Virus record (IMG/VR): IMGVR_UViG_3300046411_000715
Span: 1-51,974 of that record
DNA: 51,974 nucleotides
Direction: 5' to 3' (one strand)
From: a virus
Notes under the pieces: generated by a model
What the model was told of the DNA's origin: nothing
Seen by the model: only the letters and a program-made list of their open reading frames with translations
The model's database searches: none
In this document: positions 5,183 to 51,974 of the stretch, piece by piece
How the letters are laid out: every line of letters begins with the position of its first letter
How positions within the stretch are numbered: position 1 is the first letter of the stretch
Position numbers and translations under genes: made by a program

Positions 5183-5187
5183 GTAGT

Positions 5188-11022: not shown

Positions 11023-11027
11023 ACATC

Positions 11028-25738: not shown

Positions 25739-26114
25739 TATCGTAGATAAACTTAGTGAAGGTATTCACTATGAAATTATTCCAAGTTCGTTAGATGAAA
25801 AGGGTTGGGACGTAAGACTGCTAGAAGAGTTTCCCGAAACTGTTATACGTTATGGTAATGTTGCATTCGATGGTAAACAAGATGCACTTACTTTTAACTA
25901 TAATATAGTTAGCAGTCCTGACCCTGAGTTAGAAATAGAAGGCAACTTTGAATTCCAAGAGTACTGTGGGAGAATACTAAGTAATATTATAGAGGCATCT
26001 ATTGCCGATGGGTCAATGATGGCATGGGACAAAGAGAATGAAGAAGTTCTTGCAACAAAAGAAAATTTAGAATGGGCAGAAAATGAATATAAATCTAGAA
26101 CAGACGATACTTAG
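25731..26114 (+). CDS. Conserved hypothetical between uvsX and gp41, 127 aa
   Basis: Starts with GTG inside the uvsX end. An acidic protein with a beta-rich middle (TVIRYGNVAFDG, LTFNYNIVSS, LEIEGNFEFQEYCG) and helical C-terminus. Marine T4-like phages usually carry a protein of this size and place here. I do not know its function. It overlaps gp41 by 32 bases, so all three are translated as a unit, and a role with recombination or helicase loading is possible but unproven. Confidence 0.8.
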   Translation: MNDIVDKLSEGIHYEIIPSSLDEKGWDVRLLEEFPETVIRYGNVAFDGKQDALTFNYNIVSSPDPELEIEGNFEFQEYCGRILSNIIEASIADGSMMAWDKENEEVLATKENLEWAENEYKSRTDDT

Positions 26115-30038: not shown

Positions 30039-30219
30039 ACTCTTTCATATCAGTTATCCAATTTCGCATTCTTTGTGCCTGCTTTTCATGAAAGTTTTTG
30101 TTTTTTAAATCTTTCATAGATTGTTCAATATGAAAATCGTATAGTCTAGTTGCAAATGCAATTGCATCTTGATATGGCATACGAACTGAATTTGAAAAAG
30201 ACCTCTCTACTTTTTTCAT
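29998..30219 (-). CDS. Last gene of the curli-like operon, 73 aa
   Basis: A soluble, basic helical protein: KVERSFSNSVRMPYQDAIAFATRLYDFHIEQ and a KNFHEKQAQRMRNWITDMKEF helix. Its ATG overlaps the cyclase stop by four bases. The 3' end overlaps the DUF3310-like gene on the other strand by 41 bases. No family recognised. Its coupling to the cyclase suggests a partner or regulator, which is inference. Confidence 0.65.
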   Translation of the reverse strand: MKKVERSFSNSVRMPYQDAIAFATRLYDFHIEQSMKDLKNKNFHEKQAQRMRNWITDMKEFIVSNESCREREA

Positions 30220-32042
30220 GGTGAATATATTTCTATTTTTTCTTCTTTACCTTTTACTTTAATTACATCTAACTTTTTAAATAAAAAGTCTTTACGACTA
30301 TATCCATATTGACGAATAGAGTTTACAGTATCTTGACTGATAAGTATTCTGTTGTTTTTATATTTGCCTCTGGCCGCTAATGCTTCCAAACGAGCGGCGA
30401 GATTAACAGAGTCTCCGATGACGGAATAATCAAATCGGGAAACAGAACCCATGTTCCCAACGATGCAGTCACCAGTATTAATACCAATGCCGACATTGAT
30501 GCTAGGAAGATTTTTTCTTTTAAATTCATCTTGTATTATCTCTAGTTCTTGTTCTATTTCTACTGCAGAAATACATGCCATTTCTGCATGATACGTATTG
30601 TCTAATGGTGCATTCCAAAATGCCATTATACAATCACCCATGTATTTATCAATTGTGCCTCCATTACTTAGTATAATATTAGACGTTCTATCTAAAAAGT
30701 TATTAACTAATTCCACTAGACCTTCAGGGTCATCATTATTTTTGTAATGTTCTGATATTGGTGTAAACCCAACTATGTCCATAAAAAAGAATGTCATGTT
30801 CTTTCTCTCACCACCAAGTTTTAGTAGACTTGGGTCTTCTGCAAGTTTATCTACCATGTCTGGTGATAGATACGTTTTGAACTGGCCTTTTATCATTTCT
30901 TTTAGTTTGTATGTCACGTAGTACTTGTTAAATGATGCATGTCCGAACACCAGAAGCGATGCCAGTGACGTATAAATTACATCGATAAGCAATAAAGCAG
31001 TAAACCAATAATATAGTCCTGTTGCGACTATACTACCAATCATAGCAAGAGATAATATGCCACTTAGATACGTAGGCAATCTATATACCATAAGTAGTAT
31101 TAATAACATACTCATTGTTAAAACAAGTATCTCTAATTGTTCAAGAAAGAAATGTCTTTGTACTTGTACACCACTTACAACAGTTTGAATTAAGTTTGCT
31201 TGAACATCATGTGGGTACATCGCACCCATTGGTGTTGGCACTGGATTTACTAATCCACCAGCAGATAAACCAATGATATACATTTGTCCATCTGGCATTG
31301 GTTCACCAAAAGAGATACGTTTAAACTTATTCCAATATGCAATTTGTATGTTAGAGTTAGGTGTGGTAGACATTTTATCTAATTTACCCATTCTTACCCA
31401 TTCAACACCTGCTTCTTTTACTTTCATCGCATAATTAGGTTGACGATTCCAAACACGTAAAGTTTCTAGTGCGAGAGAAGGATAGATATGACTATTTGCA
31501 ATTACCATTAATGGTGCTTCACGAACTATACCATCAATACTTGGTGCGGCACTTACAACACCGACACCAACAGGATTTAATTCTTTTATAGGTGTAGAAA
31601 TACCTTTATAAGTATACAACCAGTCACTAGGGTCACCTTTACCTAGTTTACCAAAACCAAGAAAAGGTTTATCGCCTTTATTTGATACGTTTGTAGGAAT
31701 AGAAGATAATATAACTTCTCTTTTTGACATCGCATATGCAAGGTCATTGTCACCATCAAATCTATCGGGTTCAGTAAATCCCATGTTCATTACATACAAA
31801 GACAATGCCCCATTTGAAGTTAAAACTTTTGCATAGACATCACGTGGAAATGGAAATTGTCCAAACTTCTCTAGAGACTTTTCATCGATATCGACTAGAA
31901 CAATCCCAGAGTCTACAGGAGTTTGTAGATATTGTAGTGAATCAAAATAGTTTAAACGAAACTGTTCTACTAATTTAGGGTCAACAACACGAACACCAAT
32001 TAATAATACTATTGTTATAAGAACAACTTTCCAATTGTACAT
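30216..32042 (-). CDS. Membrane adenylate cyclase with a CHASE2 sensor
   Basis: A 608-aa receptor cyclase. Residues 3-18 form a membrane helix. About 25-295 form a CHASE2 extracytoplasmic sensor (DSLQYLQTPVDSGIVLVDIDE, FPFPRDVYAKVL, GVVSAAPSIDGIVREAPL). Three helices span about 303-367. A class III cyclase domain follows (about 412-605). All key residues are present: metal Asp D422 and D470, adenine-selecting K466 and D538, and N547 and R551 for catalysis. It should make cAMP inside the host in response to an envelope signal. It is the second-to-last gene of the curli-like operon. CHASE2 cyclases beside FecR-domain proteins are known in bacteria. I am not aware of a characterised phage example. 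Confidence 0.93.
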   Translation of the reverse strand: MYNWKVVLITIVLLIGVRVVDPKLVEQFRLNYFDSLQYLQTPVDSGIVLVDIDEKSLEKFGQFPFPRDVYAKVLTSNGALSLYVMNMGFTEPDRFDGDNDLAYAMSKREVILSSIPTNVSNKGDKPFLGFGKLGKGDPSDWLYTYKGISTPIKELNPVGVGVVSAAPSIDGIVREAPLMVIANSHIYPSLALETLRVWNRQPNYAMKVKEAGVEWVRMGKLDKMSTTPNSNIQIAYWNKFKRISFGEPMPDGQMYIIGLSAGGLVNPVPTPMGAMYPHDVQANLIQTVVSGVQVQRHFFLEQLEILVLTMSMLLILLMVYRLPTYLSGILSLAMIGSIVATGLYYWFTALLLIDVIYTSLASLLVFGHASFNKYYVTYKLKEMIKGQFKTYLSPDMVDKLAEDPSLLKLGGERKNMTFFFMDIVGFTPISEHYKNNDDPEGLVELVNNFLDRTSNIILSNGGTIDKYMGDCIMAFWNAPLDNTYHAEMACISAVEIEQELEIIQDEFKRKNLPSINVGIGINTGDCIVGNMGSVSRFDYSVIGDSVNLAARLEALAARGKYKNNRILISQDTVNSIRQYGYSRKDFLFKKLDVIKVKGKEEKIEIYSP

Positions 32043-32045
32043 TGT

Positions 32046-32891
32046 TTATTGTTGTGTAACAGAAATGCTACAACCACCCATAGTTTGACAGTTTTGTGAT
32101 AGTGAATAAGACTGAGCAGAGTTGCCTTGCTGACTTAAATTTAATGTTGTTGGACTAGAACCAGTTAAAGATATATTTGCAGTATGTGTTGCATAACCAC
32201 TTTGATACCCTGTGACATTATTTCCATCATTGTACGTATATAGATTTACAGTTTTTACACCATCAGTATTTTGTCTCCAGAATACATTATTATTATCAGA
32301 GTAAAGATAAAATGTTGCTTGGTGTTCACTATAGATACCTGCAGATGAATTTCTTTGACTACCTGCAAGATTATTATTATCTCCGTGAATATCGATAGTT
32401 GCATCATGACCACCACCTTCACTTCCGTCCCATGCAAAAGTCGTATCGTTCAGAGAACTAAGAATATATCCTTGACCCCAACGAACATTGTTATCGTCAC
32501 CATAAATGTGAAGACCTATGTGAGATTCTTTACAGAGTGAACCACGACCACATATTTGTGCAAAGTGTAAATTATTAAATGTTCCGTCTATATCACCACT
32601 ACTTAAACTACCCCAATGCCCATAACTTACTTTGTTATTATGTCCATGCTGAATTATTTTTACTTCGTTACCTTGATGTTGCATCGAGAAGTCTACTTTA
32701 TTATCTTTACCTTCTTGTTCTATAAACAACTTTGTGCCTTCGCCACTTTGAGTGATATATATTTCGTTATCTGCAAATGCATACTCACAACCTGCAATAC
32801 CAAATGCAAATAGAATCCACATTGTCAAAATAGTTTTGAAACCCTGTGGTGATATTTCTTCTTTAATACGTTGTATGTAATATTTAATCAT
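32046..32891 (-). CDS. Curlin-repeat protein 2 (CsgA/CsgB-like)
   Basis: A 281-aa secreted protein. A long signal sequence (hydrophobic core about 19-39) ends at Y-A-F-A before DNEIYITQSGEG. Imperfect repeats with the curlin spacing follow (x-Q-x-G-x-x-N): IEQEGKDNKVDF, MQHQGNEVKIIQHGHNNKVS, DDNNVRWGQG, GDNNNLAGSQ, SDNNNVFWRQ, and a final NLSQQGNSAQSYSLSQ. The first 25 mature residues mirror curlin protein 1. Four Cys are unusual for a curlin. It lies between the cyclase and FecR genes. A role as amyloid subunit or nucleator is inferred from the repeats. Confidence 0.85.
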   Translation of the reverse strand: MIKYYIQRIKEEISPQGFKTILTMWILFAFGIAGCEYAFADNEIYITQSGEGTKLFIEQEGKDNKVDFSMQHQGNEVKIIQHGHNNKVSYGHWGSLSSGDIDGTFNNLHFAQICGRGSLCKESHIGLHIYGDDNNVRWGQGYILSSLNDTTFAWDGSEGGGHDATIDIHGDNNNLAGSQRNSSAGIYSEHQATFYLYSDNNNVFWRQNTDGVKTVNLYTYNDGNNVTGYQSGYATHTANISLTGSSPTTLNLSQQGNSAQSYSLSQNCQTMGGCSISVTQQ

Positions 32892-34039
32892 TCTTGTATT
32901 ATTATGATTCTTGCTTGTGAACCATCCCCTAGAGTTATTTCACTTGGTTTTTGATTAGTATATGTTTCAATAACGGCATTAGTATATATTGCATGTGTTA
33001 TTCTAATAATACCTTCTACCTCTCTGGTCATAACAATAGTTTCTTCTTCTTTGTTGATAAATGTATTATATTGACTATCTTCATCAAAACCGACTTGAGT
33101 GCCTTCAATATTAATATTACCTGTATCTGCGACTTCTCTATCAATTTCATTTATCTTATCAAGTTCTGCAGTAATATCTAATAAGTCTTGAAGAAACTCA
33201 ACATCTAATAAATTAATATCTAATTCAGTATACTCTAATTCTTCTTTGTCTTCTAGTGCATCATCTTCTAAGGCATCGTATGCCAAAAAGTCAACATCTA
33301 AAATCCCTTGAGTATCGTCTTCTTTACTTTCTCTTTCTCTTTCTACTTCTTTTATTTCTTTTGGTGGATTGACAATAAACATATTGTTGATTGAATCAGG
33401 TGTAATTCCTTCAAGAATAACTGTTCTTTGTGGCATGACATCATATGACTGTAACATCATAGATTGATATGCTTCATTTAATGTAATCGTGCCACCAGCA
33501 TTTGTAATAAATATTTCACCAGATGATTTACCAGTTTTATCAGGTAGTAATACTACTAGAGTTCTACCGAGTTCATCAACTGTAGTTGTAAAATCTGTAC
33601 CACGAATACCTATCTGAGCAGTGGGCGTAGAGATATCGACATTTGCCTTATCAATTCTTGCACCTGTACCAGAAGTAAATCTAGCAGTACCCAATGCCAT
33701 TCGCATCGTCATCTTCGACAACGATGGGTCTGGGTCATAATATACTTCGTCAATATAAATTCTTGTGTGTTCAGTCAATGCTAATTCTTCTTCATCTTTG
33801 AACTCAATTAACATTCTGCCATTACCAGTAATAGCAGTATCATTCATTTCTACATCAGGTAGACTTGTATCTGAAACAACAATCTCTTCACCAGATTGTC
33901 TTTCAAGTGCGGCACTACCCGTGTGTTCACGAATGTCACCAATAGAGTCTGCATAAACAGACCCTATTAGTATTAGATTACTCGCCAGTATCTTGCTGAA
34001 TAATCGTAATTTCTGAACCGTCTGTAACAAAACTTGCAT
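32888..34039 (-). CDS. Secreted FecR-domain protein
   Basis: A 383-aa exported protein. The signal segment is FSKILASNLILIGSVYA. A FecR domain spans about 45-190: ERQSGEEIVVSDTSL, GNGRMLIEF, ARFTSGTGARIDKANVDISTPTAQIGIRGTDF. The C-terminal half is very acidic, with repeated L-E-x-E/D stretches, and ends in a small beta region. FecR domains usually pass or sense envelope signals, and stand-alone secreted ones often accompany CHASE2 cyclases. It overlaps curlin 1 by 62 bases and curlin 2 by four. A signal-receptor or surface-anchoring role is inferred from the operon. Confidence 0.88.
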   Translation of the reverse strand: MQVLLQTVQKLRLFSKILASNLILIGSVYADSIGDIREHTGSAALERQSGEEIVVSDTSLPDVEMNDTAITGNGRMLIEFKDEEELALTEHTRIYIDEVYYDPDPSLSKMTMRMALGTARFTSGTGARIDKANVDISTPTAQIGIRGTDFTTTVDELGRTLVVLLPDKTGKSSGEIFITNAGGTITLNEAYQSMMLQSYDVMPQRTVILEGITPDSINNMFIVNPPKEIKEVERERESKEDDTQGILDVDFLAYDALEDDALEDKEELEYTELDINLLDVEFLQDLLDITAELDKINEIDREVADTGNINIEGTQVGFDEDSQYNTFINKEEETIVMTREVEGIIRITHAIYTNAVIETYTNQKPSEITLGDGSQARIIIIQE

Positions 34040-34895
34040 CTAATATCGCCTCTGTACTATTTAAACCTGTACCTGTTCTTTGACCAACAAATACATAGTT
34101 TTTATCACCTGTTAAATCTACAGATATTTTATTATCACTTCCATCTTCTTGAGTTGTTAATATCCAGTTGTTTGAACCAGTTATATCCCAATCCCAGATA
34201 GCATTCGAAGAGTTTATAAAAGCACCAATAGTGTTTGAAGCACCACTACCATCAACTAGTAAGTCAATGTTGGCACCATCTGCACTACCTTCTGTAATAT
34301 TCCAGGCATCCCAATATGCGGCATTTGACCCATAATTACTTGTAGCATTACCACCATAAGTTCCATAACCAGTGATATTACTACCAGTGAATGTATGAGC
34401 AGAGTAAGTTCTAAAACCTGCACTATTGTTAAAAAATGCACCATCACCTAAATTATAAGGTGTGTTATAAGTTTCAGATTTATTACCCAATCTAAATGCA
34501 GTTTGGTTGTAACTGCCTTGAATATCTACATTCATATCAATGGCATCTGCACTATAGTTACTACTAGTATTACCAGATACAGTACCAATCAATTGATTGA
34601 TTCTGTTATTTGAACCTACTAGATTGTAATCTATGTTTGACCCATCTGAATTGATATCACCAAATAACAAGTTATTACTACCATTAAATAACCAGTATGC
34701 ATTACTGTTACCTATTTGTAGTTTCATATCGGTCGCATTAGAACCAGTGTTAGTATTTTGTCCAATCAAGTTTCCATTACCTGTTTGTTCAATAATAATT
34801 TCTACACCTTCTCCAACTTGCTCGATATATATCTCATTATCTGCAAATGCAAATGCACTTACTGTTAATAATAAAGCGAGAATTAAAGTTCTCAT
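33978..34895 (-). CDS. Curlin-repeat protein 1 (CsgA/CsgB-like)
   Basis: A 305-aa secreted protein with a short clean signal peptide (LILALLLTVSAFAFA, then DNEIYIEQVGEG). Asn/Gly/Ser-rich curlin-type units follow: IIIEQTGNGNLIGQ, MKLQIGNSNAYWLFNGSNNLLFG, YNLVGSNNRINQLIG, MNVDIQGSYNQTAFRLGN, and NIDLLVDGSGASNTIGAF, ending ITIIQQDTGE. The Asn spacing fits a beta-solenoid amyloid fold like CsgA. It is the gene directly after CsgG. Its 3' end overlaps the FecR gene by 62 bases. The match is to the repeat pattern, as curlins diverge fast. Confidence 0.87.
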   Translation of the reverse strand: MRTLILALLLTVSAFAFADNEIYIEQVGEGVEIIIEQTGNGNLIGQNTNTGSNATDMKLQIGNSNAYWLFNGSNNLLFGDINSDGSNIDYNLVGSNNRINQLIGTVSGNTSSNYSADAIDMNVDIQGSYNQTAFRLGNKSETYNTPYNLGDGAFFNNSAGFRTYSAHTFTGSNITGYGTYGGNATSNYGSNAAYWDAWNITEGSADGANIDLLVDGSGASNTIGAFINSSNAIWDWDITGSNNWILTTQEDGSDNKISVDLTGDKNYVFVGQRTGTGLNSTEAILDASFVTDGSEITIIQQDTGE

Positions 34896-35770
34896 TCTTT
34901 CTCCTTAGTTAATGAGTGTTTATCGTTGACTCCATCTGATTGATGTGGGTGACGATGACCACTCTTCATTTGCCAATAACCTCTATCGTGGCCTTGGTAA
35001 ATAAGTTCTAATACTGCAACTTCAATAGCGGAGCGAACTGCAAAAGTCACACTCTCGTTAAATCCATTACCGTCTTCAAATTCCAATAACTTTGTGTCCA
35101 TATCAAAGAATCGGAATAAATCATAACCACCACCGACAGACAAAATAGTTTTTTTCGCCTGAACATTCATTAAAATTTCACCTGTTAGTGTTGAGGTTGC
35201 CCTTAGACTAACAATTACTGAATCTCTTCTATATGATGTGTTGTGTCCAATACCTAAATATCTGGCACCACGACCACCACTTTCGATGTTAGTATCATAC
35301 CCGACAACACCACCATCGATTATAATTCCTGCAAACACTAAAGAACTTAGTGCTTTGTCTTCGTTAAACTCTTCTCTAGAACTTCTTATTATTTGTCTTT
35401 CTCTTATGAGAGCATCTATGTTAGTTCTTTCAACTACTCTAAACCACTCTCCATTACCTGCAGTTTTAAGTGCATCAATAACAAGTAAATCTGCACCCTG
35501 TGTTACTGCAGTAGAGAAGTCTGAGAAGTTATCTCTACTTTTTCTTTGTCCTGTCTTATCTGCAAATCCATAAACTGCAACTACTACGGGTTTATCATTA
35601 CTTGGACCTGGTACGTTTTTTAATTCTACTGTTGATGGCAATTTTTCTACAGTTGCACTTTCTCTACATGCTAATTGGTCATCATCGCAATCTATACGAG
35701 AATAAGAAGGTATACTTGCACAACTTGATAGAACTAGGCATAAAAGTCCTATCAACAAAAATATTTTCAC
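34892..35770 (-). CDS. csgG: Curli secretion channel lipoprotein CsgG
   Basis: The outer-membrane nonameric pore that exports curlin. The lipoprotein signal ends in VLSSC (lipid Cys at about residue 17). Family segments line up with E. coli CsgG: VAVYGFADKTGQRK, a FSTAVTQGADLLVIDAL helix near the constriction loop, FRVVERTNIDALIRERQIIR, SLVFAGIIIDGGVVGYDTN, GGRGARYLGIG, TGEILMNVQAKKTI, and RSAIEVAVLELI near the end. Length 292 aa (E. coli 277). CsgG is flanked by CsgF and a curlin as in bacterial operons. No CsgE is visible. Confidence 0.95.
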   Translation of the reverse strand: MKIFLLIGLLCLVLSSCASIPSYSRIDCDDDQLACRESATVEKLPSTVELKNVPGPSNDKPVVVAVYGFADKTGQRKSRDNFSDFSTAVTQGADLLVIDALKTAGNGEWFRVVERTNIDALIRERQIIRSSREEFNEDKALSSLVFAGIIIDGGVVGYDTNIESGGRGARYLGIGHNTSYRRDSVIVSLRATSTLTGEILMNVQAKKTILSVGGGYDLFRFFDMDTKLLEFEDGNGFNESVTFAVRSAIEVAVLELIYQGHDRGYWQMKSGHRHPHQSDGVNDKHSLTKEKE

Positions 35771-36237
35771 TAGAATGCTCCACTACCTACTGGTACATCT
35801 AACGTTGTTATTGTTCCATCATCACCTGTTATAGTGATTCTAATTACATCAATACCATCTTCACCACAACCAGTGCATAAATCATATGCAACTGTATTAC
35901 CAAGCATATCAAAGAAACCTGATATTTCACCTTCATTTGTTCCATCACCAAACATTTGGTCAACTAATTGTTTTGATATTTGAGCATAAATTCTTGATTC
36001 TAAGTTTCTAAGGAATTTAGCATGGGTTGTACTTTCTGATTCACGTTCTGCTTTTGCAATTGCAGATTCAATGTCTTCTTGAATCTTATCTCTACGAGAC
36101 TTCTGTTGGTTTTCTATAGTCAAATAATGCGAACTAGTTCCGATACCACTAAATGATGGTGATTTAAATTTATGAACTATTTGGTCTGCAAATACATTAC
36201 TTACGAGTAGACTTGCGACTAGTACTAATTTTTTCAT
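35770..36237 (-). CDS. csgF: Curli assembly factor CsgF
   Basis: A surface adaptor that plugs into CsgG and hands curlin to the nucleator. It has a signal peptide (MKKLVLVASLLVSNVFA) and then the CsgF hallmark F-x-S-P-S-F-S-G near the mature N-terminus, where E. coli has F-x-N-P-N-F-G-G and where CsgF inserts in the CsgG pore. The C-terminal half (ITITGDDGTITTLDVPVG) matches the beta-rich CsgF end. A CTGCG pair of cysteines is unusual. It ends one base into csgG and overlaps the small membrane gene upstream by 41 bases. Confidence 0.9.
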   Translation of the reverse strand: MKKLVLVASLLVSNVFADQIVHKFKSPSFSGIGTSSHYLTIENQQKSRRDKIQEDIESAIAKAERESESTTHAKFLRNLESRIYAQISKQLVDQMFGDGTNEGEISGFFDMLGNTVAYDLCTGCGEDGIDVIRITITGDDGTITTLDVPVGSGAF

Positions 36238-41382: not shown

Positions 41383-41390
41383 TATAAATA
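41383..41390 (+). promoter_or_regulatory. T4-type late promoter of the 353-aa gene
   Basis: A perfect TATAAATA with six bases before the ATG at 41397. It opens the late block of internal or structural proteins. Confidence 0.75.
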
Positions 41391-41396
41391 GTAGTT

Positions 41397-42458
41397 ATGC
41401 AACCATTACTAGAAGCAAAATTAAAAGCAGAAGATTACGAAGCGGCAATAGTTATGGGTTTTTATACTGTAACTAAAAGAGTAATGGAATCTACAGAAAA
41501 CTATGGCATTAAACAAAGTCTTTATGATAAAATAGAAAATACTCCAAGTGCCAAAAAAGCAGGTGAATTAATTGCGACAAAAATACTAAAAGATTACCCA
41601 CAACTAAAGAATAAAAAAGCAGAAGTATTTGGTAGAGCAAAATCTAATTTAACAGATTTTTGGAAATCATATGGTGGTTCAGACACTACACCAAAAACAG
41701 ATATAAAAATAGGTGATAAAAACTTTTCAGTTAAAATAGGTTTAGCACAATTAATGTCTGGTGGTAAAGCAGAATCAACTGCAACGTTTCAAGCGGCAGT
41801 CAAGAATTCTAATCCAGATTTAGTAAAAAGTCCTCAGTATAAAAAAACAACTCAAGTATTAGAAGGTTTTGTAAAGAATACATTAGCACCATCACAACTT
41901 AGACCTTTGATTAAATCTGGCACAGATAAAGTTGTTAATGCCGCGGAAAAAGCACACAAAGATTGTATGTCTGAACTTGGTAAATTATTTAATGAATCAG
42001 AGTCATTCAAAGTAGAATTTGCCAAAGAAGCAATGTCTGGTTATGAAAAGTTTGGTAAAAATAGTCCAGCATCTGCAGATTTAATGCTGGTTGCTACTGC
42101 TGACGGTGGTAAAACAGTAATTCAAGATGTTAATGACGATGCTTATTGTTTAAAAATAGCAAACGCAATGAGACTTCAAGCAAGATTTAAAACATCATCA
42201 AGAAAAATAAAAGGTGTAAAAACAGGAGAATATAATTATTGGTCAGTTGTATCTTTAATAGTAAATTCTATGTCAGAAGAATTAGAATCAGGCGAAAAAG
42301 AAATGTTGATTGAAATCAATATATTAAATAAAGTTAAATCATTTGTAAGTAAAACATGGAATAAAGTTACAAACTTTTTTAAAAAAGGTTTGAGACAACT
42401 TACATCTTTTCTTGGTGCAATACCAGATATTAGAGTAAAAAGAAATGTTAAGTTTTAA
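41397..42458 (+). CDS. Late protein, 353 aa, unknown; possible packaged protein
   Basis: The start MQPLLEAKLKA has L-L-E followed by Ala, a fit to the gp21 cleavage rule (L/I-x-E). The centre has TDIKIGDKNFSVKIGLAQLMSGGKAESTATF, where D and the K in S-V-K-I-G could form a nuclease-like D-x(n)-x-K, but other catalytic residues are unclear. A helical middle follows and a basic end (KTWNKVTNFFKKGLRQ). Leaderless late promoter. The next gene overlaps its end by 14 bases. I recognise the layout from marine myoviruses but not its role. Confidence 0.75.
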   Translation: MQPLLEAKLKAEDYEAAIVMGFYTVTKRVMESTENYGIKQSLYDKIENTPSAKKAGELIATKILKDYPQLKNKKAEVFGRAKSNLTDFWKSYGGSDTTPKTDIKIGDKNFSVKIGLAQLMSGGKAESTATFQAAVKNSNPDLVKSPQYKKTTQVLEGFVKNTLAPSQLRPLIKSGTDKVVNAAEKAHKDCMSELGKLFNESESFKVEFAKEAMSGYEKFGKNSPASADLMLVATADGGKTVIQDVNDDAYCLKIANAMRLQARFKTSSRKIKGVKTGEYNYWSVVSLIVNSMSEELESGEKEMLIEINILNKVKSFVSKTWNKVTNFFKKGLRQLTSFLGAIPDIRVKRNVKF

Positions 42459-44694
42459 TGAACACATAGCAGAAGTTGAAGAAGGTGTTAATGACCCTGC
42501 AATCTTCAAAGCAATCTTTCTTGCTGGTGGACCAGGTAGTGGTAAATCATTTATTGTTGGTAAAACAGGACTTACATCTTTAGGGTTTAAAGTTGTAAAT
42601 TCTGATACTGCATTTGAACGTGCAATGAATCAAGCAGGTATGGAAATGAACCCTGATAATATTTTTTCTGTTGGTGGTCAACAAATGAGAGGTAAAGCAA
42701 AAGAGTTGACTGCAAAACAACAAATGTTATATATGAAAGGCAGACTTGGTTTAGTTATTGATGGTACTGGACGTGATGCAGATAAAATAATTAGACAGAA
42801 TGAAAAACTAAAAGAACTAGGTTATTCTACTGCAATGATATTTGTCAATACAGACAAAGAAACTGCTTTACGTAGAAATATGGAAAGAGCAAGAAGACTA
42901 GACCCGAAAGAAGTTGCAAAGATGTGGGATAACGTTCAAAGAAATGTTGGTAAGTATCAAAGAGCATTTAAAAGTAGATTAACAATAGTTGACAACTCAG
43001 ATGGAAAAGACTATAATAAAGAAACAACTAGAGCATTTAGAATAATGAAACAATTTGCAGAGAAGAAACCTATGAATCCGATTGCACAAAAGTGGATAAA
43101 GACTCAGAAAGAAGAGACGAACCCTAGAATACCTAGAAAGAAAGGTCAACCTGCTAATTCTAAGAAACATTCTGATTTATATACAGATGAAAATCCTAGA
43201 GGTACAATACACGGATTGGGTTTCAAAGATGTTGAAACTGCACGAGCAAGTATTAAAAAGATAGAAAACTCTGGTAAAAAACATGCACATAAAATACAGG
43301 CGGCAGTTGCTATGGAACAACGTGCAAGAGAAATGGGTAAAACTGCAGAAGCGGCCATCTATCGTACATATATTAATAAGATGAAAAAGAAAACAAAAGA
43401 AATGAACAAAGAAGATTACATGGAGTATCACCCAAAGAACAATAAAAAGTATCGTAAGTTGACACCATTTCAAACAGAATCTTACAAAAGTCTTTTTCTA
43501 CCAGAAGAAAAGAATACACATATGACACATATAGAAGATAAAGTTCTGTATGGTGGAGTCAAAGGTACAAGAGAGGCAATCAATGCCTTGAGAAGTATAC
43601 GTGATATGTTAGCAGGTAAATCATCAACTAAGATGTCAGTTAAGTGGGATGGTGCACCAGCAATCTTCTGTGGTGAAGACCCAAGTGATGGTAAGTTCTT
43701 TGTTGCTAAGAAAGGTATCTTTGCTAAGAATCCGAAAGTATACAAATCAAATGCTGATATTGATGCTGATACTTCAGGAGATTTAGCAGAGAAATTAAAA
43801 CTTGCATTGAAGCATTTAAAGAATCTTGGTATTAAAGATGTCATACAAGGTGACTTCTTGTACTCAAAACAAGACTTAAGTAAAACTAAAATAGATGGTA
43901 AGCAGTATATTACATTTCACCCAAACACAATTGTCTATGCAGTAGAGGCAGGCACAGAAGCGGCCAAACGTATTACTAAGTCACAGATTGGCATAGTTTG
44001 GCATACAACATATAAAGGTAAAGACTTTGCATCGATGAAAGCATCATATGGTGTGAAAAAGATACCATCTTCTCCAGCAGTTTGGTCGCAAGATGCAGAA
44101 CTAAGTGGCGCTGGTGAGGCAACAATGAATGAAAAAGAAACTAAAGAAGTTACAAGTTATTTAAGTACTGCTGGTTTTCTATTCAATAAAGTCGCTGGTG
44201 ATACACTCAGAGAACTAGAAAAGAATCCAGAACTTGCACAATTAATCGAACAATACAACAATACTTTTGTTAGAGCAGGGCAAATGTTACCAGATAGTAA
44301 GAAACATACTGCAAGATTGATACGTTGGATAGAGAATAAGTATAAAAAAGAAATGGACAAACGTAAAACTGCAAAAGGAAAACAAACACAACAAGACAAG
44401 TTAGACACAATTTTAAAGTTCTTTTCGCCACAAAATAGAGTTTCGCTTGTTAATATGTTTGATTTACAGAAGAATATAGTTCTCGCAAAACTAAAACTTA
44501 TAAATAGATTAAACAACATTAGTAATATTGATGCATTTGTGAAAACACCGAAAGGTTATAAAACTACTGGTGCAGAAGGATATGTTGCTATTGATAAATT
44601 AGGTGGTGGCGCAGTTAAGTTAGTTGATAGATTAGAATTCTCTTACAACAACTTTTCTCCAAATATATTGAAAGGATGGGATAAACCGAGGTAA
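42445..44694 (+). CDS. P-loop kinase fused to a nucleic-acid-ligase-like domain
   Basis: A 749-aa late protein. Residues 1-12 (MLSFNEHIAEVE) resemble a T4 capsid-targeting peptide with an I-A-E cleavage site. Residues 22-200 form a P-loop kinase: Walker A GGPGSGKS (28-35), and DGTGRD with the acceptor-type Asp, as in polynucleotide or zeta-toxin kinases. Residues 235-320 form a helical HGLGF module. Residues 360-600 are ligase-like: K400-W-D-G in SVKWDGAPA (motif I), FVAKKGIFAK, and VIQGDFLY. This suggests 5'-end phosphorylation plus sealing, as T4 Pnk/Rnl do in two proteins. Substrate and packaging are inferred. Confidence 0.8.
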   Translation: MLSFNEHIAEVEEGVNDPAIFKAIFLAGGPGSGKSFIVGKTGLTSLGFKVVNSDTAFERAMNQAGMEMNPDNIFSVGGQQMRGKAKELTAKQQMLYMKGRLGLVIDGTGRDADKIIRQNEKLKELGYSTAMIFVNTDKETALRRNMERARRLDPKEVAKMWDNVQRNVGKYQRAFKSRLTIVDNSDGKDYNKETTRAFRIMKQFAEKKPMNPIAQKWIKTQKEETNPRIPRKKGQPANSKKHSDLYTDENPRGTIHGLGFKDVETARASIKKIENSGKKHAHKIQAAVAMEQRAREMGKTAEAAIYRTYINKMKKKTKEMNKEDYMEYHPKNNKKYRKLTPFQTESYKSLFLPEEKNTHMTHIEDKVLYGGVKGTREAINALRSIRDMLAGKSSTKMSVKWDGAPAIFCGEDPSDGKFFVAKKGIFAKNPKVYKSNADIDADTSGDLAEKLKLALKHLKNLGIKDVIQGDFLYSKQDLSKTKIDGKQYITFHPNTIVYAVEAGTEAAKRITKSQIGIVWHTTYKGKDFASMKASYGVKKIPSSPAVWSQDAELSGAGEATMNEKETKEVTSYLSTAGFLFNKVAGDTLRELEKNPELAQLIEQYNNTFVRAGQMLPDSKKHTARLIRWIENKYKKEMDKRKTAKGKQTQQDKLDTILKFFSPQNRVSLVNMFDLQKNIVLAKLKLINRLNNISNIDAFVKTPKGYKTTGAEGYVAIDKLGGGAVKLVDRLEFSYNNFSPNILKGWDKPR

Positions 44695-44695
44695 A

Positions 44696-45058
44696 ATGAA
44701 ATCATTTAAAGAGTTCACAACTACAGACGAAGCAATGACTGTTCAACAAAGGTTGAAAAGGTCTCGTCAATTCAAAAAAATCAAGGCAAAAATCGCAATG
44801 GGTCGAAAGAAAGCGGCCCGTAAAATAGCATCACCTGAGAAACTAAAGAAACGTGCATTGAAAAAAGCACGTCTAAAGTTCTTTAAGAAAATAACTAAAG
44901 GTCAAGCACCACAAGATATATCTCTTGCTCGAAGAAATGAGATAGAGAAAAAACTTGATAAGATGAAACCTAAGATTCAAAAGTTTGCTAGGAAGATTTT
45001 ACCACAAGTAAGGAAAGATGAATTAGCAAAGAAAAAGAAATCTAAAGAAAACAAATAA
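44696..45058 (+). CDS. Very basic late protein, possible internal head protein
   Basis: A 120-aa protein, almost half Lys/Arg, with helical repeats (RLKRSRQFKKIKAKIAMGRKK). It starts MKSFKEFTTTDEA, the same pattern as the T4 internal-protein capsid-targeting start MKTYQEFI-x-EA, though it lacks an L/I-x-E site. It begins one base after the preceding stop with GAGGT as ribosome site. A DNA-binding, capsid-packed role like T4 internal proteins fits composition and expression class. Confidence 0.78.
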   Translation: MKSFKEFTTTDEAMTVQQRLKRSRQFKKIKAKIAMGRKKAARKIASPEKLKKRALKKARLKFFKKITKGQAPQDISLARRNEIEKKLDKMKPKIQKFARKILPQVRKDELAKKKKSKENK

Positions 45059-45064
45059 TATATC

Positions 45065-46309
45065 ATGGCAATCAAAAACTTTTCACAATATTTAATTGAA
45101 GCAGAAAGAGAGGTGTTCTTCACATTTGGTAGAATGAATCCACCCACTATCGGACATGGTAAAGTTCTAGAAACGTTAGCAAAGAAATCTGGTAGAAATG
45201 ACTATAAAGTTTTTACCTCACAAGTATCTAATCCAAAGAAAGACCCACTATCTTACTCAGATAAAATAAAACATATGCGAAAAATGTTTCCAAAACATGG
45301 CAGAAGTATCATTATTAATAAAAAGATAAGAACTGCCTTTGATGCGGTGACAGAACTATATGACCAAGGATATCGTAAAGTAAATATGATTGTTGGTTCT
45401 GATAGAGTTAGAGAGTTTGATACACTATTGAAAAAGTACAATGGTGTAAAAGGTAGACATGGTTTCTATAACTTTGAGTCAATCAATGTGTTATCTGCAG
45501 GTGAACGTGACCCAGATGCTGAAGGAGTTGCTGGTATGTCTGCATCAAAACAAAGAGCAAATGCTCAAGAAAATGATTATACTGCATTCTCTCAAGGTGT
45601 ACCAAAGAATATGAATGATAAAGATACTCGTAAGTTATTTAACGATGTTCGTAAAGGTATGGGACTTAAAGAAGAGAAAAAGTTCAAACGTCATGTTGAC
45701 CTTGGTAAATTAAACGAACTTCGAGAAAACTATGTCAAAGGTAGTCTTTATGAAATAGGCGATACTGTTGTTATCAAAGAATCAGAAGAAGTTGGTATTA
45801 TTACAGTATTAGGTTCTAATTATGTTATTATTGAAACAAATGATAAGAAAAAAGTACGTAAATGGTTAGATGCGATAGAACTTGTTGAAAAGAAACTAAC
45901 ACCAGCAGAACTTAAGAAAAGAGAAGAGATTGCTAAAGCAATAGAAAAAGATAACCCTAAAATGCCTATGGATAAGAAAATGGCAATTGCTACTGCTACT
46001 GCTAAACGTGTTGCAGAAAAGATTGTCGATGATGTTTCTACTATCATAGAAAAAGAAAAAGAAAAGGCAAGAGTTGCTCAAGATAAAGATGTCAAAGACA
46101 AGAAAGGTTCGCAACCATCTGTTTACTATAAAGGCGTAGCAAAGAAAACAAAAAGTTCTAGAGCATCACATTTTGCTAAACATGGTAAGATGGACGATGA
46201 TAATCCAGCGGCATACAAAGATGCACCTGGGGATAAAAAAGCAAGAAAGAAAGGAACGAAACTTAGTAAACACACAAAATCATACAGACAAATGTTTGGA
46301 GATGACTAA
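45065..46309 (+). CDS. HIGH-type nucleotidyltransferase with KOW-like domain, possibly packaged
   Basis: A 414-aa late protein. MAIKNFSQYLIEAE resembles a capsid-targeting start with L-I-E cleavage before Ala. The catalytic domain (about 15-190) has FTFGRMNPPTIGHGKVL (T-x-G-H in place of H-x-G-H), MIVGSDRVREF, and a GMSASKQR that fits the I-S-x-T-x-x-R motif of NadM/cytidylyltransferase-type enzymes. A small KOW-like barrel (GDTVVIKESEEVGIITVL) follows and the C-terminus is basic. It may act on nucleotides or NAD precursors soon after infection if packaged. Substrate unknown. Confidence 0.8.
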   Translation: MAIKNFSQYLIEAEREVFFTFGRMNPPTIGHGKVLETLAKKSGRNDYKVFTSQVSNPKKDPLSYSDKIKHMRKMFPKHGRSIIINKKIRTAFDAVTELYDQGYRKVNMIVGSDRVREFDTLLKKYNGVKGRHGFYNFESINVLSAGERDPDAEGVAGMSASKQRANAQENDYTAFSQGVPKNMNDKDTRKLFNDVRKGMGLKEEKKFKRHVDLGKLNELRENYVKGSLYEIGDTVVIKESEEVGIITVLGSNYVIIETNDKKKVRKWLDAIELVEKKLTPAELKKREEIAKAIEKDNPKMPMDKKMAIATATAKRVAEKIVDDVSTIIEKEKEKARVAQDKDVKDKKGSQPSVYYKGVAKKTKSSRASHFAKHGKMDDDNPAAYKDAPGDKKARKKGTKLSKHTKSYRQMFGDD

Positions 46310-46312
46310 TAG

Positions 46313-46320
46313 TATAAATA
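46313..46320 (+). promoter_or_regulatory. T4-type late promoter of the 81-aa gene
   Basis: A perfect TATAAATA with exactly five bases to the ATG at 46326, so +1 is the A of the start codon. Confidence 0.77.
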
Positions 46321-46325
46321 GAAAC

Positions 46326-46571
46326 ATGATATCTTTTAAAGAATATGCAGAAATAGAAGAAAGTTCGACTAAAGGTCTTCAAAACAAGGCATCAAAGTCT
46401 GGATTTGCATATAAAACTTTAAAAAAAGTATTCGATAGAGGTGTTGCCGCATGGAGAACTGGTCACAGACCAGGGACAACTCCAGCACAATGGGGTATGG
46501 CGAGAGTTAATGCCTTTATTACTAAGAAAAAGAAAGGTATTAAATTAAATCACGACCAAGATTTAGGTTAG
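46326..46571 (+). CDS. DUF5824-like small late protein, 81 aa
   Basis: The product starts MISFKEYAEIEES, again like a capsid-targeting peptide (I-E-E). The rest follows a pattern common in marine myoviruses: GLQNKASKSGFAYKTLKKVF and RGVAAWRTGHRPGTTPAQWG. I associate this with DUF5824, function unknown. The start at 46326 is fixed by the late box five bases upstream. The longer frame from 46173 would run through the end of the previous gene. It may be a packaged protein. Confidence 0.8.
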   Translation: MISFKEYAEIEESSTKGLQNKASKSGFAYKTLKKVFDRGVAAWRTGHRPGTTPAQWGMARVNAFITKKKKGIKLNHDQDLG

Positions 46572-46580
46572 GAGAAAAAC

Positions 46581-46847
46581 ATGGCAAGATATATTCAAGT
46601 ATTAGGTACAGAGGCCGCTTGTGGTACATCGACTGGAAATGGTAGTAATTTTGGTAATGCAGGATTAGTTCGCCTTCTCAATAGCACTGGTACTGCAAGA
46701 TTAGTTACAGTTGAAACTTCTGCAAACGTCACTATCGGAACTTTTACACTTGCTGGTAACCAAGAGATATACGTAAGAAAAGGTAAAACAGACGAGATAT
46801 TTGCCGCGGCAACTACAGTTCTTGGAGTTTCAGTAGCATTTAGATAG
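46581..46847 (+). CDS. Small beta-rich late protein, 88 aa
   Basis: A Gly/Thr/Ala-rich protein: MARYIQVLGTEAACGTSTG, ARLVTVETSANVTIGTFTLAGNQEIYVRKGKTDEIF, and an end with VLGVSVAFR. It reads as a small beta sandwich of the kind seen in capsid or neck decoration proteins. It has a good AGGAGAAAA ribosome site and sits in the late block. No family recognised, so a virion role is an inference. Confidence 0.75.
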   Translation: MARYIQVLGTEAACGTSTGNGSNFGNAGLVRLLNSTGTARLVTVETSANVTIGTFTLAGNQEIYVRKGKTDEIFAAATTVLGVSVAFR

Positions 46848-46855
46848 GAGTATCA

Positions 46856-49273
46856 ATGAAGTTCAGAGACATATCTGAAAGAGTTAAAGGTGGTAAGTTA
46901 GACCCATTGTCTAAAATGGGAAAACAAAAACTTACTGGGCAAGAAGTTGCAAGGTATTATAAAGATAATCCCAAAGCAAAACAGGCCGCTAGAGATAAAA
47001 CAGTTAAAAAAGCAATCGAACTTGCTCTTGATTTAGGTGGCGCTCAATCGTATGCAATAAAAGAAATAGAAAAACTTAAAAGAGGTCTTTCAAAAATGCC
47101 TGTTGTTCAACAAGCACTTAGAACTGCAAACGAAGAAATGACAAGTACATCTTCTGTTGCAATGCCTGAAATACCTTTAGGTCGTAAACACAAAGTAATG
47201 AAAAGAAAAGAACTTGACGAAGTTACAAGACAAGAAGTTGATGCGATGAAAAAAGTTTCTAAAGACATGCAAAAAGTCTTAGTATCTTATCAGAAGGTTG
47301 CAAACATAGGTGATAAAGAACTCAAGAATACAATTCATAACAAAGATTACGAAAAAGTTTTAGATGCAAGAAATACAATCCTTAAGAAGATTGGAACTCT
47401 TAATACCAAAATGTTATTGCAAAAAGAAGCAGTACTTGGACACGATTTTGGTACTAACCCATTCTCTAAAAAAGAAGCAGAACAGGCGAAAAAACTTGCT
47501 AGACAATATAGTGTAAAAGTAAAACCGCACAGAAACCCTAAGAGCAAAAATCATCTAGAGTTTCATGGTGGCACACGTAATTTACAAGCATTCTACAGAA
47601 ATTTACAAATGATAATGAACGAAAGTCTTGAAGAAAACAAAGAAAAGTTATCACCAGCAAAGGCGCAATATAAGAAATTTAATATAATAAGAACCAAACT
47701 CTATAGGTTTGTGAAGGCAAAAACTAAAGCACATAAATTTGCAATTGATGACCTAATGTTAATGACTTCTCCTAAAGTTATTGAAGGAATGTACAAACAA
47801 AATCCTCGAGGTTTTACAAGAATGATGGATAAGATGTACCCCAACGAAAGAGAAAAAATGACCAAAATGGATTTTACTGTTCTGGGTGACTTTATTGATG
47901 CTAGAGGTAAAGTGATAAAAGGACAAGGAGACAAAGTAGATGAAAGTACTTCACTTAATGAAGAGACAATACTTTACCGAGTTAAAGATATCAAAAAACC
48001 TGAACTGGACAAGTTTAAATCGTCTGCAAGGTTAATGAAGTTAAAAATAAACATTAAACAAAGTCCTAGAGGTAAAGAAACTATTATAAGACTGGAAGGT
48101 GGTAAGAAACAGATAAGAGATTTTGATGCAGTAGCAAGAGGTAAATCATCTTACGGAGACCCTTCTTTAGCAATGAAAGAAGAGTTTGACTTGAATGAAG
48201 AGTCTGCAACTATGAAGAAAGTTCGTCAAGTAGTTAAGAAGAAAGGCATGATGAACATTGATGGCATGAAACTTGACCTGACCACTGCAAGTATGATAGC
48301 ATCTGTATATGACAAAGTTAATCCACAGAACAAAAAAAGAATGGACTCACTTAAATTACCACAACTTGTTAATCTTACAATGAAAGTTGCTGGTAAAGGC
48401 AAAATGAAAAAAGAAGATGCAGTTGAAAGAGCAAAAGAACTTGCTGACTTAAAAGCAAAACATAAAAGAGAAGTAGAGCAAGAAAAAGACGAAATTGCCG
48501 CAACTAAACAAACTAACGAATCTTTGTGGAGAAACATACACAACAAGAGAAAAAGTGGTAAGAAGATGCGAAAACCTGGTGAGAAAGGCGCACCTACGGC
48601 ACAAGATTTTAAAAATGCTAGAGGTGAAGCAGTATCACCTGCACAACAGGCCGCAATCGCAATCTCTAAAAAAGAAAGAGGCGAGAAACCTAAGAATGAA
48701 TGTGCAGATGAAAAAGACTTTAAACCACATAAAATGTATAAGGGTGATAAAGAAGTCATGGCAAATACATATGCTGACCATGTGAAGTATGACAAAATGG
48801 GTTACACTCACGAGAAACCTAAGAAAGAGGCATTAGATGCCAAAGACAAACCATTTGTCAAAGACTTAGTTAAAAAGTTAAGAGGTGGTTCTAAAACTCA
48901 TGCAAAACAGGCAGATGATTTAGAAAAAGCAATGAATACAGAATCTATGTCTCGTGCAAGACGTGATGCAATGAGAGATATGGGCACACGTAAAGACAGA
49001 GACGATGATGGTAACCCTGTAGCAACTGCAGATGACAGAAAGGCCGCAGATAAAAATGTTGTTATGCAAATAAGAAGAGTTACAGATTTAAGTAAACCTG
49101 CACAAATAGAATTACGAAATGGTAAAAAAGTAATGCTGAAACCAGCAGATGCTAAAATGATGATGAAAAAGTTTGATGCAATTCGTAAACCACAAGACAG
49201 ACTTAAAGTTCAAAATGCAATGAACGATAAGAAAATGACAGTTCAAGGTTTAAAAAGATTACTCGGAAAATAA
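46856..49273 (+). CDS. Large modular late protein, possible packaged polyprotein
   Basis: An 805-aa, Lys-rich, mostly helical protein. The start MKFRDISERVKGG has I-S-E near residue 8. Apparent modules are separated by acidic linkers with L-x-E sites at about 120-122 (L-D-E), 258-260 (L-E-E), 367-369 and 446-448 (both L-N-E). One module (about 370-435) is beta-rich, with a TILYRVKDIKKPELDKF start. Another (about 450-515) has KKGMMNIDGMKLDLTTASMI. The C-terminal part (700-805) is basic and ends VQGLKRLLGK. If cut by gp21 it would yield several internal head peptides. No enzyme motif seen. Confidence 0.75.
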   Translation: MKFRDISERVKGGKLDPLSKMGKQKLTGQEVARYYKDNPKAKQAARDKTVKKAIELALDLGGAQSYAIKEIEKLKRGLSKMPVVQQALRTANEEMTSTSSVAMPEIPLGRKHKVMKRKELDEVTRQEVDAMKKVSKDMQKVLVSYQKVANIGDKELKNTIHNKDYEKVLDARNTILKKIGTLNTKMLLQKEAVLGHDFGTNPFSKKEAEQAKKLARQYSVKVKPHRNPKSKNHLEFHGGTRNLQAFYRNLQMIMNESLEENKEKLSPAKAQYKKFNIIRTKLYRFVKAKTKAHKFAIDDLMLMTSPKVIEGMYKQNPRGFTRMMDKMYPNEREKMTKMDFTVLGDFIDARGKVIKGQGDKVDESTSLNEETILYRVKDIKKPELDKFKSSARLMKLKINIKQSPRGKETIIRLEGGKKQIRDFDAVARGKSSYGDPSLAMKEEFDLNEESATMKKVRQVVKKKGMMNIDGMKLDLTTASMIASVYDKVNPQNKKRMDSLKLPQLVNLTMKVAGKGKMKKEDAVERAKELADLKAKHKREVEQEKDEIAATKQTNESLWRNIHNKRKSGKKMRKPGEKGAPTAQDFKNARGEAVSPAQQAAIAISKKERGEKPKNECADEKDFKPHKMYKGDKEVMANTYADHVKYDKMGYTHEKPKKEALDAKDKPFVKDLVKKLRGGSKTHAKQADDLEKAMNTESMSRARRDAMRDMGTRKDRDDDGNPVATADDRKAADKNVVMQIRRVTDLSKPAQIELRNGKKVMLKPADAKMMMKKFDAIRKPQDRLKVQNAMNDKKMTVQGLKRLLGK

Positions 49274-49274
49274 A

Positions 49275-49484
49275 ATGAAAACTTTTGCTCAACACAGTAA
49301 AGAACTTGAAGAAGCACCACTGATTCAAGACCAAATACCTGCAGTAAAATCTATGGCAACTAAATTAGTAAATCTATTAACAAAAGAAAACTCTAAAAGA
49401 AGAATTCAACTAATGACTCAAGTAGGAAGAGCAGTTGGTATTAAAGTAAAAGAATTACCGAATGGGAAAATAGAATTACGTTAA
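49275..49484 (+). CDS. Small late protein with capsid-targeting-like start, 69 aa
   Basis: The product starts MKTFAQHSKELEEAPL, close to the T4 internal-protein start MKTYQEFI, with an L-E-E site followed by Ala. The remainder is a helical, basic segment (KSMATKLVNLLTKENSKRRIQL) and a short beta end (VKELPNGKIELR). It begins one base after the previous stop. Likely a small internal head protein, function unknown. Confidence 0.75.
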   Translation: MKTFAQHSKELEEAPLIQDQIPAVKSMATKLVNLLTKENSKRRIQLMTQVGRAVGIKVKELPNGKIELR

Positions 49485-50656: not shown

Positions 50657-51974
50657 ATGGTAGACGTAAACAAAAATATTAAAAATGCATACTTAAGTAT
50701 GTATGAACAAAAAGAAGAAGTTCTTGATGAAACAAACAAGAACGATAAGTCAGACGATGGCGATGGGTTAGATGCAGTTCAACCTAAAGCAGTTAAGAAA
50801 AAGTTTGACGATAGAAAAGACAAAGACATTGATAACGATGGCGATGTTGATTCTTCTGACAAATATCTCCACAAAAGAAGAAAAGCAGTATCTAAAGAAA
50901 TCGAAAAAGAAGGTAATGCATTTAGTAAAGCATTGATGGCCGCTAAAGAGAAAGGTGAGAAAACATTTAAAGTTGGCGACAAAGAATACAATGTTCAATC
51001 AGAACTAAACAAACTTCAAAAAGAATCATTTACTTTAGATGACATTCGTGAAATGTGTCACTCTAAAGACCACGATTGTGCAACTTACGTTGACCACCCA
51101 GAGTTTGGTCTTGGTAAACCAGTATATGAATCTCATGCGATACCAAACGATGACGGTTCTGTTGACTGGTATGACGTTGAGTTTGCTCATGGTATCGAAA
51201 GAGAAGTTCCTGCAGAAGACATGCAAATTCTTCAAACAGAAGCACACAAAGAAAAAGTCCACAAAGATGATGAAAAAATGATTAAGAGTCAAAAGAAAAA
51301 AATGAAAGAAGAGGACGAAGAAGAAGAAGAACCAAAAATGATGGACTCAGATGAAAACCCAATGAAGAAGAAAAAGAAAGTCATGGTGCCTGATGCAGAC
51401 AAACCTAGCGAAGATGATGCAGAAGAAGACAAACCAAAAGTTGGTGTAGAAAAACCTGAAGACAAAAAGAAAAAGAAAACTTCTGGTAATTCTGGTGAGA
51501 AAGAAGCAGAAATCTCTAAAATTGGCGAACAAGTATCAGAGTTCACTAATCTTTTAAATGAACTAATGGCAGTTGATGCAGTTGGTAAAAAGAAAAAAGA
51601 TAAAGATGGTTCTGAACCAGACGAAAGAGACGAGAACAACCCAGAAGGTGAAAAAGACTTTGTAGATGCACATGGTAAAAAAGATGTAGTCGTTGATGGT
51701 GAGAAAGCAATAGACGATACTTCTAAAACTGCTAAAGACACTAAACAAGGTAAACACGTCAAACAACAACAAGCAAAAGGCGACTCTAAACCTATTAAAT
51801 CTACCGAAGCACCTGTTAAAGGTGAAAAAGAACCTAAAGAAGGTGAAGGTAAGAAATCAGTTAAAACTGAAAATACTCTTATGGACTTAGCACTTAAGGC
51901 ATTATCAGGTAAAAACATTCCTGAAATGAAGAAGATAGTTGCTAGTGCTAAAGAAGAAAATAAGAACCCTTTTG
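50657..51974 (+). CDS. Large acidic late protein with EF-hand-like motif, truncated by the window
   Basis: Open from an ATG at 50657 to the right edge (439 codons, no stop). It is low-complexity: long Lys/Asp/Glu runs after residue 200. A calcium-loop-like motif D-I-D-N-D-G-D-V-D-S-S-D (about 58-69) is followed by a helix with KYLHKRRKAVSKEI. A folded segment spans about 110-190 (FTLDDIREMCHSKDHDC, YVDHPEFGLGKPVYES, WYDVEFAHGIEREV), a small barrel. The motif D-x-D-x-D-G is frequent in marine myovirus internal/structural proteins. Likely a virion or prohead-core protein. The C-terminus is unseen. Confidence 0.75.
   Translation, partial: MVDVNKNIKNAYLSMYEQKEEVLDETNKNDKSDDGDGLDAVQPKAVKKKFDDRKDKDIDNDGDVDSSDKYLHKRRKAVSKEIEKEGNAFSKALMAAKEKGEKTFKVGDKEYNVQSELNKLQKESFTLDDIREMCHSKDHDCATYVDHPEFGLGKPVYESHAIPNDDGSVDWYDVEFAHGIEREVPAEDMQILQTEAHKEKVHKDDEKMIKSQKKKMKEEDEEEEEPKMMDSDENPMKKKKKVMVPDADKPSEDDAEEDKPKVGVEKPEDKKKKKTSGNSGEKEAEISKIGEQVSEFTNLLNELMAVDAVGKKKKDKDGSEPDERDENNPEGEKDFVDAHGKKDVVVDGEKAIDDTSKTAKDTKQGKHVKQQQAKGDSKPIKSTEAPVKGEKEPKEGEGKKSVKTENTLMDLALKALSGKNIPEMKKIVASAKEENKNPF

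Follow-up and report, generated by a model that had tools for sequence, protein, structure and literature searches.

A gene block with T4-type capsid targeting tags predicts internal head cargo, and possibly cargo polyproteins, in a marine T4-like phage

In phage T4, the N-terminal tag of the internal protein IPIII holds its targeting function in residues 4 and 7 and its processing function in residues 8 and 10, and the protease gp21 cuts after L/I-x-E, as outlined in the consulted portion of PMC9026906. T4 IPII and IPIII both start with MKTYQEFIAE; in this class of internal head proteins the N-terminal propeptide has 10-19 residues. Among cyanophages, mass spectrometry has revealed a nucleotidylyltransferase in the virions of S-SM1 (PMC3037559), S-SZBM1 (PMC9146016), S-CREM2 (PMC10665884) and S-SCSM1 (PMC9602691), according to the consulted sections of these papers. 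Here we describe a block of genes at 41397-49484, continuing into an open reading frame (ORF) at 50657, in IMG/VR record IMGVR_UViG_3300046411_000715 from an uncultured marine T4-related phage; the whole stretch of 51,974 nucleotides is referred to as the window, and all coordinates are those of the window. In our view the proteins of this block are probably carried as cargo inside the head of a marine T4-like (Kyanoviridae-type) phage, with predicted cleavage, injection and functions. The sequence features on which this is based are the tag and how widely it occurs, a protease found in relatives, and the module junctions; presence in virions is taken from published data of others for relatives, and cleavage and injection would follow by analogy with T4.

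We postulate that the aromatic residues of the T4-type capsid targeting sequence would dock the proteins to the prohead core, that a gp21-type protease would cut after [LI]-x-E and so release enzymes inside the head, and that a polynucleotide-kinase-like domain, DUF6267 and an NMNAT-like nucleotidylyltransferase would be injected along with the DNA, where they could mend nucleic-acid ends and restore NAD as host defences act. In the two longest proteins, additional [LI]-x-E motifs at the junctions of shuffled modules would allow one tag to import several products. The ORFs concerned are as follows (a slash marks the candidate cut point).

41397-42458, plus strand: 353-residue protein, start MQPLLE/AK, candidate site at 41406-41414
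42445-44694, plus strand: 749-residue kinase-DUF6267 fusion, tag MLSFNEHIAE/V (42445-42474) in exact T4 register
44696-45058, plus strand: very basic 120-residue protein that starts with MKSFKEFTTTDE/A, has aromatic residues 4 and 7 and lacks a canonical L/I-x-E
45065-46309, plus strand: 414-residue NMNAT/cytidylyltransferase-like protein, tag MAIKNFSQYLIE/A (45065-45100)
46326-46571, plus strand: 81-residue DUF5824 protein, start MISFKEYAEIEE/S
46581-46847, plus strand: untagged 88-residue protein, weak PHROG match to a virion structural protein
46856-49273, plus strand: 805-residue multi-module protein, start MKFRDISE/R
49275-49484, plus strand: 69-residue protein, start MKTFAQHSKELEE/A
50657-51974, plus strand: open modular ORF running off the contig, MVDVNKNIKNAYLSMYEQKEEVLDE/T
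Candidate targeting-tag stretches: MLSFNEHIAEVE and MAIKNFSQYLIEAE

The initial annotation had quoted seven starts from this block and noted that nearly all have L/I-x-E within the first 16 residues. All seven were found at in-frame ATG codons, and the observation was confirmed, with the motif present in six of the seven quoted starts and in six of the eight block ORFs, as LLE (residues 4-6) in 41397, IAE (8-10) in 42445, LIE (10-12) in 45065, IEE (10-12) in 46326, ISE (6-8) in 46856 and LEE (11-13) in 49275. The ORF listed at 46173-46571 opens with a TTG assigned mechanically; the ATG at 46326 is the start that was quoted as MISFKEYAEIEES. The untagged ORF at 46581, although it lies in the block, was absent from that annotation, and the open ORF at 50657, which has modules in common with related cargo proteins, lies beyond the limits that it had set. 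Compared with T4, the 42445 start is in exact register (F4, H7, I8 and E10, with histidine at position 7), and in 45065 the register is moved by two extra front residues (F6, Y9, L10 and E12). F4 and F/Y/H7 are also present in three other starts (44696, 46326 and 49275), in which the cut site is later or absent; the 44696 start, MKSFKEFTTTDEA, is similar to the T4 IPI start MKTFKEFTSTTTPVSTITE/A. Aromatics at 4 and 7 are lacking in 41397, 46581 and 46856; relatives of the 41397 protein retain the aromatic part that its tag has lost, as in MHSFKNNFLTE/AK (L031) and MQGFKTFLSE/AK (Melnitz).

A motif search had been proposed in the initial annotation. Over the window as a whole, L/I-x-E alone was not enriched: it occurs in 15 of 80 called genes, while some 14% of internal methionines are followed by it, and what is unusual is just how it concentrates in this block. 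As a predictor it was therefore dropped and replaced by the fuller T4 register. The strict register was found in two genes of the window and at none of 354 internal methionines. This register, aromatic-x-x-aromatic-[LI]-x-E, was then looked for in related loci collected around tagged families, with internal methionines of the same proteins as control. In 3887 proteins, the two largest tagged families being left out, the strict register was present at 144 N-termini (3.7%) and at 21 of 13986 internal methionines (0.15%), an odds ratio of 25.6; since the loci were sampled around tagged families, this rate does not apply to whole genomes. The tag logo in relatives has F at -6, Y/F at -3, L/I at -2 and E at 0, a register equal to that of T4. 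Among the carriers there are kinases, a HAD-type phosphatase, a RimK-type ATP-grasp protein, DUF5824 proteins and many unknowns. The register was present in 51 of 58 distinct nucleotidylyltransferase N-termini (88%) and in 41 of 73 distinct DUF6267 N-termini (56%), with L/I-x-E in 67 of the latter (92%), and in both families the tag residues are conserved while their neighbours vary. When the virion-detected nucleotidylyltransferases were aligned, the tag was kept and the spacer between tag and catalytic domain was very different in length.

A tag-like start, MKTFKEFIKED, was also seen in a 54-residue T4 ORF in the L086 region (AF158101, 18966-19130, complement), which we take to be 61.1. In related loci, the gene slot just upstream of DUF6267 is hypervariable and is occupied by numerous proteins that are unrelated to one another. 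Of 106, 28 have the relaxed tag and 21 a P-x-D...G-[IV]-S-[LIV]-K signature that recalls PD-(D/E)XK nucleases; this signature is loose, and a nuclease identity is not claimed for the 41397 protein.

The four nucleotidylyltransferases detected in virions all start with a tag in T4 register: MKKFSAFLNE/A in S-SM1, MRFRQFIIE/A in S-SZBM1, MKNFSSFLTE/A in S-CREM2 and MKSFLQFLKE/A in S-SCSM1. Across the whole genome of S-CREM2, all three tagged proteins (a SAM hydrolase, an APH/ChoK-like kinase and the cytidylyltransferase, whose genes are far apart) were in the virion and none of 171 undetected ORFs was tagged (Fisher p=0.012); the two near misses, gp13 (MKDLHSFLTE) and gp12 (RFASFMAE, inside the annotated start), were both in the virion as well. 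In S-SCSM1, the consecutive genes 89-93 of the syntenic block, plus gene 97, are annotated as virion proteins. The proposal in the initial annotation that the block encodes internal head proteins, enzymes included, thus gains support from four independent published virion proteomes that contain a tagged nucleotidylyltransferase; this reading is well supported for the relatives and very likely for the present virus. As a separate observation, S-CREM2 gp12 (OR473000, 7704-10313), a virion-detected protein annotated as a CRISPR-Cas9 nuclease, has RFASFMAEAA soon after its annotated start, and its true start may be further in.

PF03420, the gp21-type S77 protease family, turned up in each of the nine phage records that were searched; of four long related viral contigs, two had it. 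The same search of the window was empty, because the contig begins at gp22 and gp21 is expected just outside. In the window's major capsid protein, the cut-site position aligns with that of T4 gp23, and it is L-x-E in five other phages aligned, so the protease probably has the same specificity as T4 gp21.

150-1244, plus strand: gp22-like prohead scaffold; the gp21 position would be just upstream, off the contig
1270-2574, plus strand: gp23 major capsid protein, site LFE/A at residues 53-55 (1426-1434), aligned with LTE/A of T4 gp23

Besides these 5'-end genes, the window carries T4-like replication genes, and its relatives are classified in databases under Kyanoviridae. The block lies 3' of a gp41-type helicase gene (26083-27471), and the corresponding interval in relatives terminates at the gp61 primase.

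The initial annotation was right about the starts, but it missed internal sites and a modular architecture. Both the 805- and the 749-residue protein have several domains per chain, in shuffled architecture, with modules found in other contexts.

42508-43023, plus strand: P-loop kinase domain of the 749-residue protein (Zeta_toxin/AAA_33)
43498-43506, plus strand: internal candidate cut site LPE/E in the linker preceding DUF6267
43513-44661, plus strand: DUF6267 domain, with near-invariant KWDG, QGD, EG[YF]V and KLVDR
47213-47221 and 47627-47635, plus strand: L/I-x-E at residues 120-122 and 258-260 of the 805-residue protein, at or near module boundaries
47954-47962 and 48191-48199, plus strand: L/I-x-E at residues 367-369 and 446-448 of the 805-residue protein, at or near module boundaries
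Residues 68-70 of the 805-residue protein, plus strand: L/I-x-E within a module

Segments of the 805-residue protein reappear in other contigs in different orders, and in a strict count four of its six sites fall at mechanically defined boundaries (p=0.012). The module encoded at 49275 likewise occurs internally, after LEE, in L029, L024, L035 and L030. Over 98 related proteins, [LI].E was present at 125 of 278 module N-boundaries (45%) compared with 38 expected (14%) when boundaries were moved round the protein in 300 circular-shift trials (standard deviation 5.8, maximum 57), whereas the reversed motif occurred at 70 compared with 39 expected. After clustering of the boundaries, four of 14 clusters had L/I-x-E in at least 60% of members, compared with two for the reversed motif; only some module families show the motif strongly, and the polyprotein claim consequently relies mainly on the circular-shift test. 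In the 749-residue protein, the joint between kinase and DUF6267 reads SLFLPE/EKNTH, close relatives have FTNFITE/QKNTH, and in C48C1 a separate DUF6267 protein starts with MMLDFKNFITE/QKNTH, so that the junction sits at the tag position of the unfused form. In AlphaFold models, IAE10 and LPE354 of the 749-residue protein are in low-confidence stretches (1-15 and 322-361) and its other four [LI].E motifs in ordered parts; sites 8, 122, 260, 369 and 448 of the 805-residue protein are in or beside such stretches. The two proteins look like cargo polyproteins, with predicted cuts at their junctions. The wider proposal, that marine T4-like phages pack polyproteins in which interchangeable modules and enzymes would share one tag and be cut by a gp21-type protease at junction L/I-x-E sites, giving a rapidly reshuffled injected kit, stands for us evenly poised between acceptance and doubt.

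Concerning the cargo itself, residues 22-193 of the 749-residue protein match Zeta/AAA kinases in Pfam, and the best target-normalised TM-score among the PDB matches listed by Foldseek (0.73) was to a bacterial polynucleotide kinase; the top Foldseek matches of this model all appear to concern the kinase domain. In DUF6267, the motifs KWDGAP, QGD, EG[YF]V and KLVDR occur in order, resembling ATP-dependent ligases. A PDB profile search with DUF6267 returned no ligase, and the Foldseek comparison gave no structural match to one either; the domain was rejected as a proven ligase because of the negative profile search, and the likeness is kept at the motif level. A literature search, to which subscription papers were mostly inaccessible, found no paper on DUF6267. 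The 45065 protein is of the CTP_transf_like type with a TFGRMNPPTIGH motif. Above the Pfam cut-off, only the kinase-type domain and DUF6267 were found in the 749-residue protein and none in the 805-residue protein, catalogued polyvalent-domain profiles not having been run individually. From what is known of these families, repair of cut tRNA or DNA and restoration of NAD at entry would be fitting tasks for a kinase with a ligase-like partner and for an NMNAT-like enzyme.

T4-type late promoter cores precede two of the block genes.

41383-41390, plus strand: TATAAATA late promoter core, with 6 bases between it and the 41397 ATG
46313-46320, plus strand: TATAAATA late promoter core, for which the 46326 ATG would be +1

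The core is only mildly above chance in the window (13 compared with 7.9), so that it weakly suggests late expression of 41397 and 46326. Frequently an ATG lies exactly six bases past the last base of the core, in the window (46313-46326, 5175-5188 and 11022-11035) as well as in HTVC008M, Melnitz and C48C1; in T4 late-promoter geometry this spacing places the ATG at +1, which suggests leaderless late mRNAs.

Several observations weigh against internal head cargo or against its cutting. L/I-x-E is absent from the first 16 residues of MKSFKEFTTTDEA (44696) and of the 46581 ORF, fewer than half of the module boundaries carry [LI].E, and boundaries drawn from related sequences are not independent. 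The intra-module site 68-70 of the 805-residue protein is likewise in a low-confidence stretch, and that model is poor (mean pLDDT 57.5), so that the low confidence may come partly from a shallow alignment. The 30 proteins detected in S-SZBM1 include neither one strict-tag ORF (105 residues) nor DUF6267, which has no tag there; L/I-x-E on its own fails to separate detected from undetected block genes in that phage and in S-SCSM1. Finally, homologues in phages such as P-HM2 retain the domains without the tag, and the authors of the S-CREM2 and S-SCSM1 studies state, in the portions consulted (PMC10665884 and PMC9602691), that such enzymes may be residue in CsCl preparations. These last two points, together with the position of the block between replication genes, are what speaks for ordinary intracellular enzymes of the gp41-gp61 region, detected in virions by carry-over and sharing starts because of common ancestry or some other function, for example binding of a replication complex. 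We hold this to be improbable, as the tag occurs on many non-homologous proteins and follows T4 residue by residue, in S-CREM2 it picks scattered virion genes while polymerase and helicase are absent from the virion list, and a late promoter core stands ahead of two block genes. Chance is far less credible still: phage proteins rich in E and K often have an early L/I-x-E, the initial annotation could have selected good cases, and over the window there is no enrichment of the motif among the first 16 residues, but the full register is about 25 times commoner at N-termini than at internal methionines with the two best families excluded, and distant homologues whose flanks differ have conserved it. 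Chance is thereby refuted for the register as a whole, and possibly explains the loosest cases, MQPLLEAK and MKFRDISERV.

The strongest competitor leaves the tagged single proteins truly internal and has the multi-module proteins uncut, with junction [LI]-x-E motifs as remnant tags of fused genes or as part of the modules' own first helix. The same module does occur both alone and fused (DUF6267 with N-terminal ITE in C48C1 and internal FITE in L034, L029 and L033), so that junction motifs could be fossils, and a mild enrichment at boundaries is seen for motifs with E in general. Nevertheless, the enrichment of the motif with L/I at P3 is far above that of other E motifs (z of 14.9 compared with 5.6-5.8), the junction in the window has changed from FITE to LPE and yet remains L-x-E, and the motif is retained ahead of several unrelated modules in varying contexts. 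Uncut chains are in our judgement possible, if doubtful.

The Kyanoviridae belong to the abundant phages of the ocean, and enzymes that authors could not tell from contamination turn up repeatedly in their virion proteomes. With a short, readable tag as a predictor of packaging, many 'hypothetical' genes would become testable injected effectors, and preloaded repair and NAD-related enzymes are suggested for the first minutes of infection; if junction sites are truly cut, this would be a new route for delivering many proteins by one signal. Elsewhere in the window, and judged by eye, there are an apparent CHASE2/nucleotide-cyclase protein, curlin-like repeat proteins and a CsgG-like lipoprotein (30216-36237, complement), as well as a NifU/IscU-like beside an IscA-like iron-sulphur protein (5143-5947).

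The closest described system is that of T4 IPI, IPII, IPIII and Alt, with which the block shares the ten-residue tag, the aromatics at 4 and 7, L/I-x-E at 8-10 and, in relatives, a gp21-type protease. The cargo bodies, however, are unrelated and many are enzymes or multi-module chains, the genes lie in the gp41-gp61 interval, and cleavage and injection are here predicted. Polyvalent proteins (Iyer et al. 2017, PMC5512222) are similar in having multiple small domains per chain, shuffled architecture and a proposed entry into the host with the DNA, but they use embedded peptidase domains or go in uncut, and the consulted part of that paper mentions neither prohead-protease sites at junctions nor a T4-type tag. 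In giant phages of the phiKZ/SPN3US type, a gp21-related prohead protease removes propeptides after glutamate and the proteins enter the cell, whereas the cargo of ejection and inner-body proteins differs and such shuffled modules are unreported in the sources as consulted. The NMNAT/cytidylyltransferase of cyanophage virions is homologous to the 45065 protein and shares its gene neighbourhood, and the consulted sections of the four papers (PMC3037559, PMC9146016, PMC10665884 and PMC9602691) note neither a T4-type tag nor a packaging signal; the literature search, with the access described above, found no paper on capsid targeting sequences in marine phages. The tag is of an already known type; what appears to be new, within the literature searched, is how widely it occurs in marine phages and the polyprotein format.

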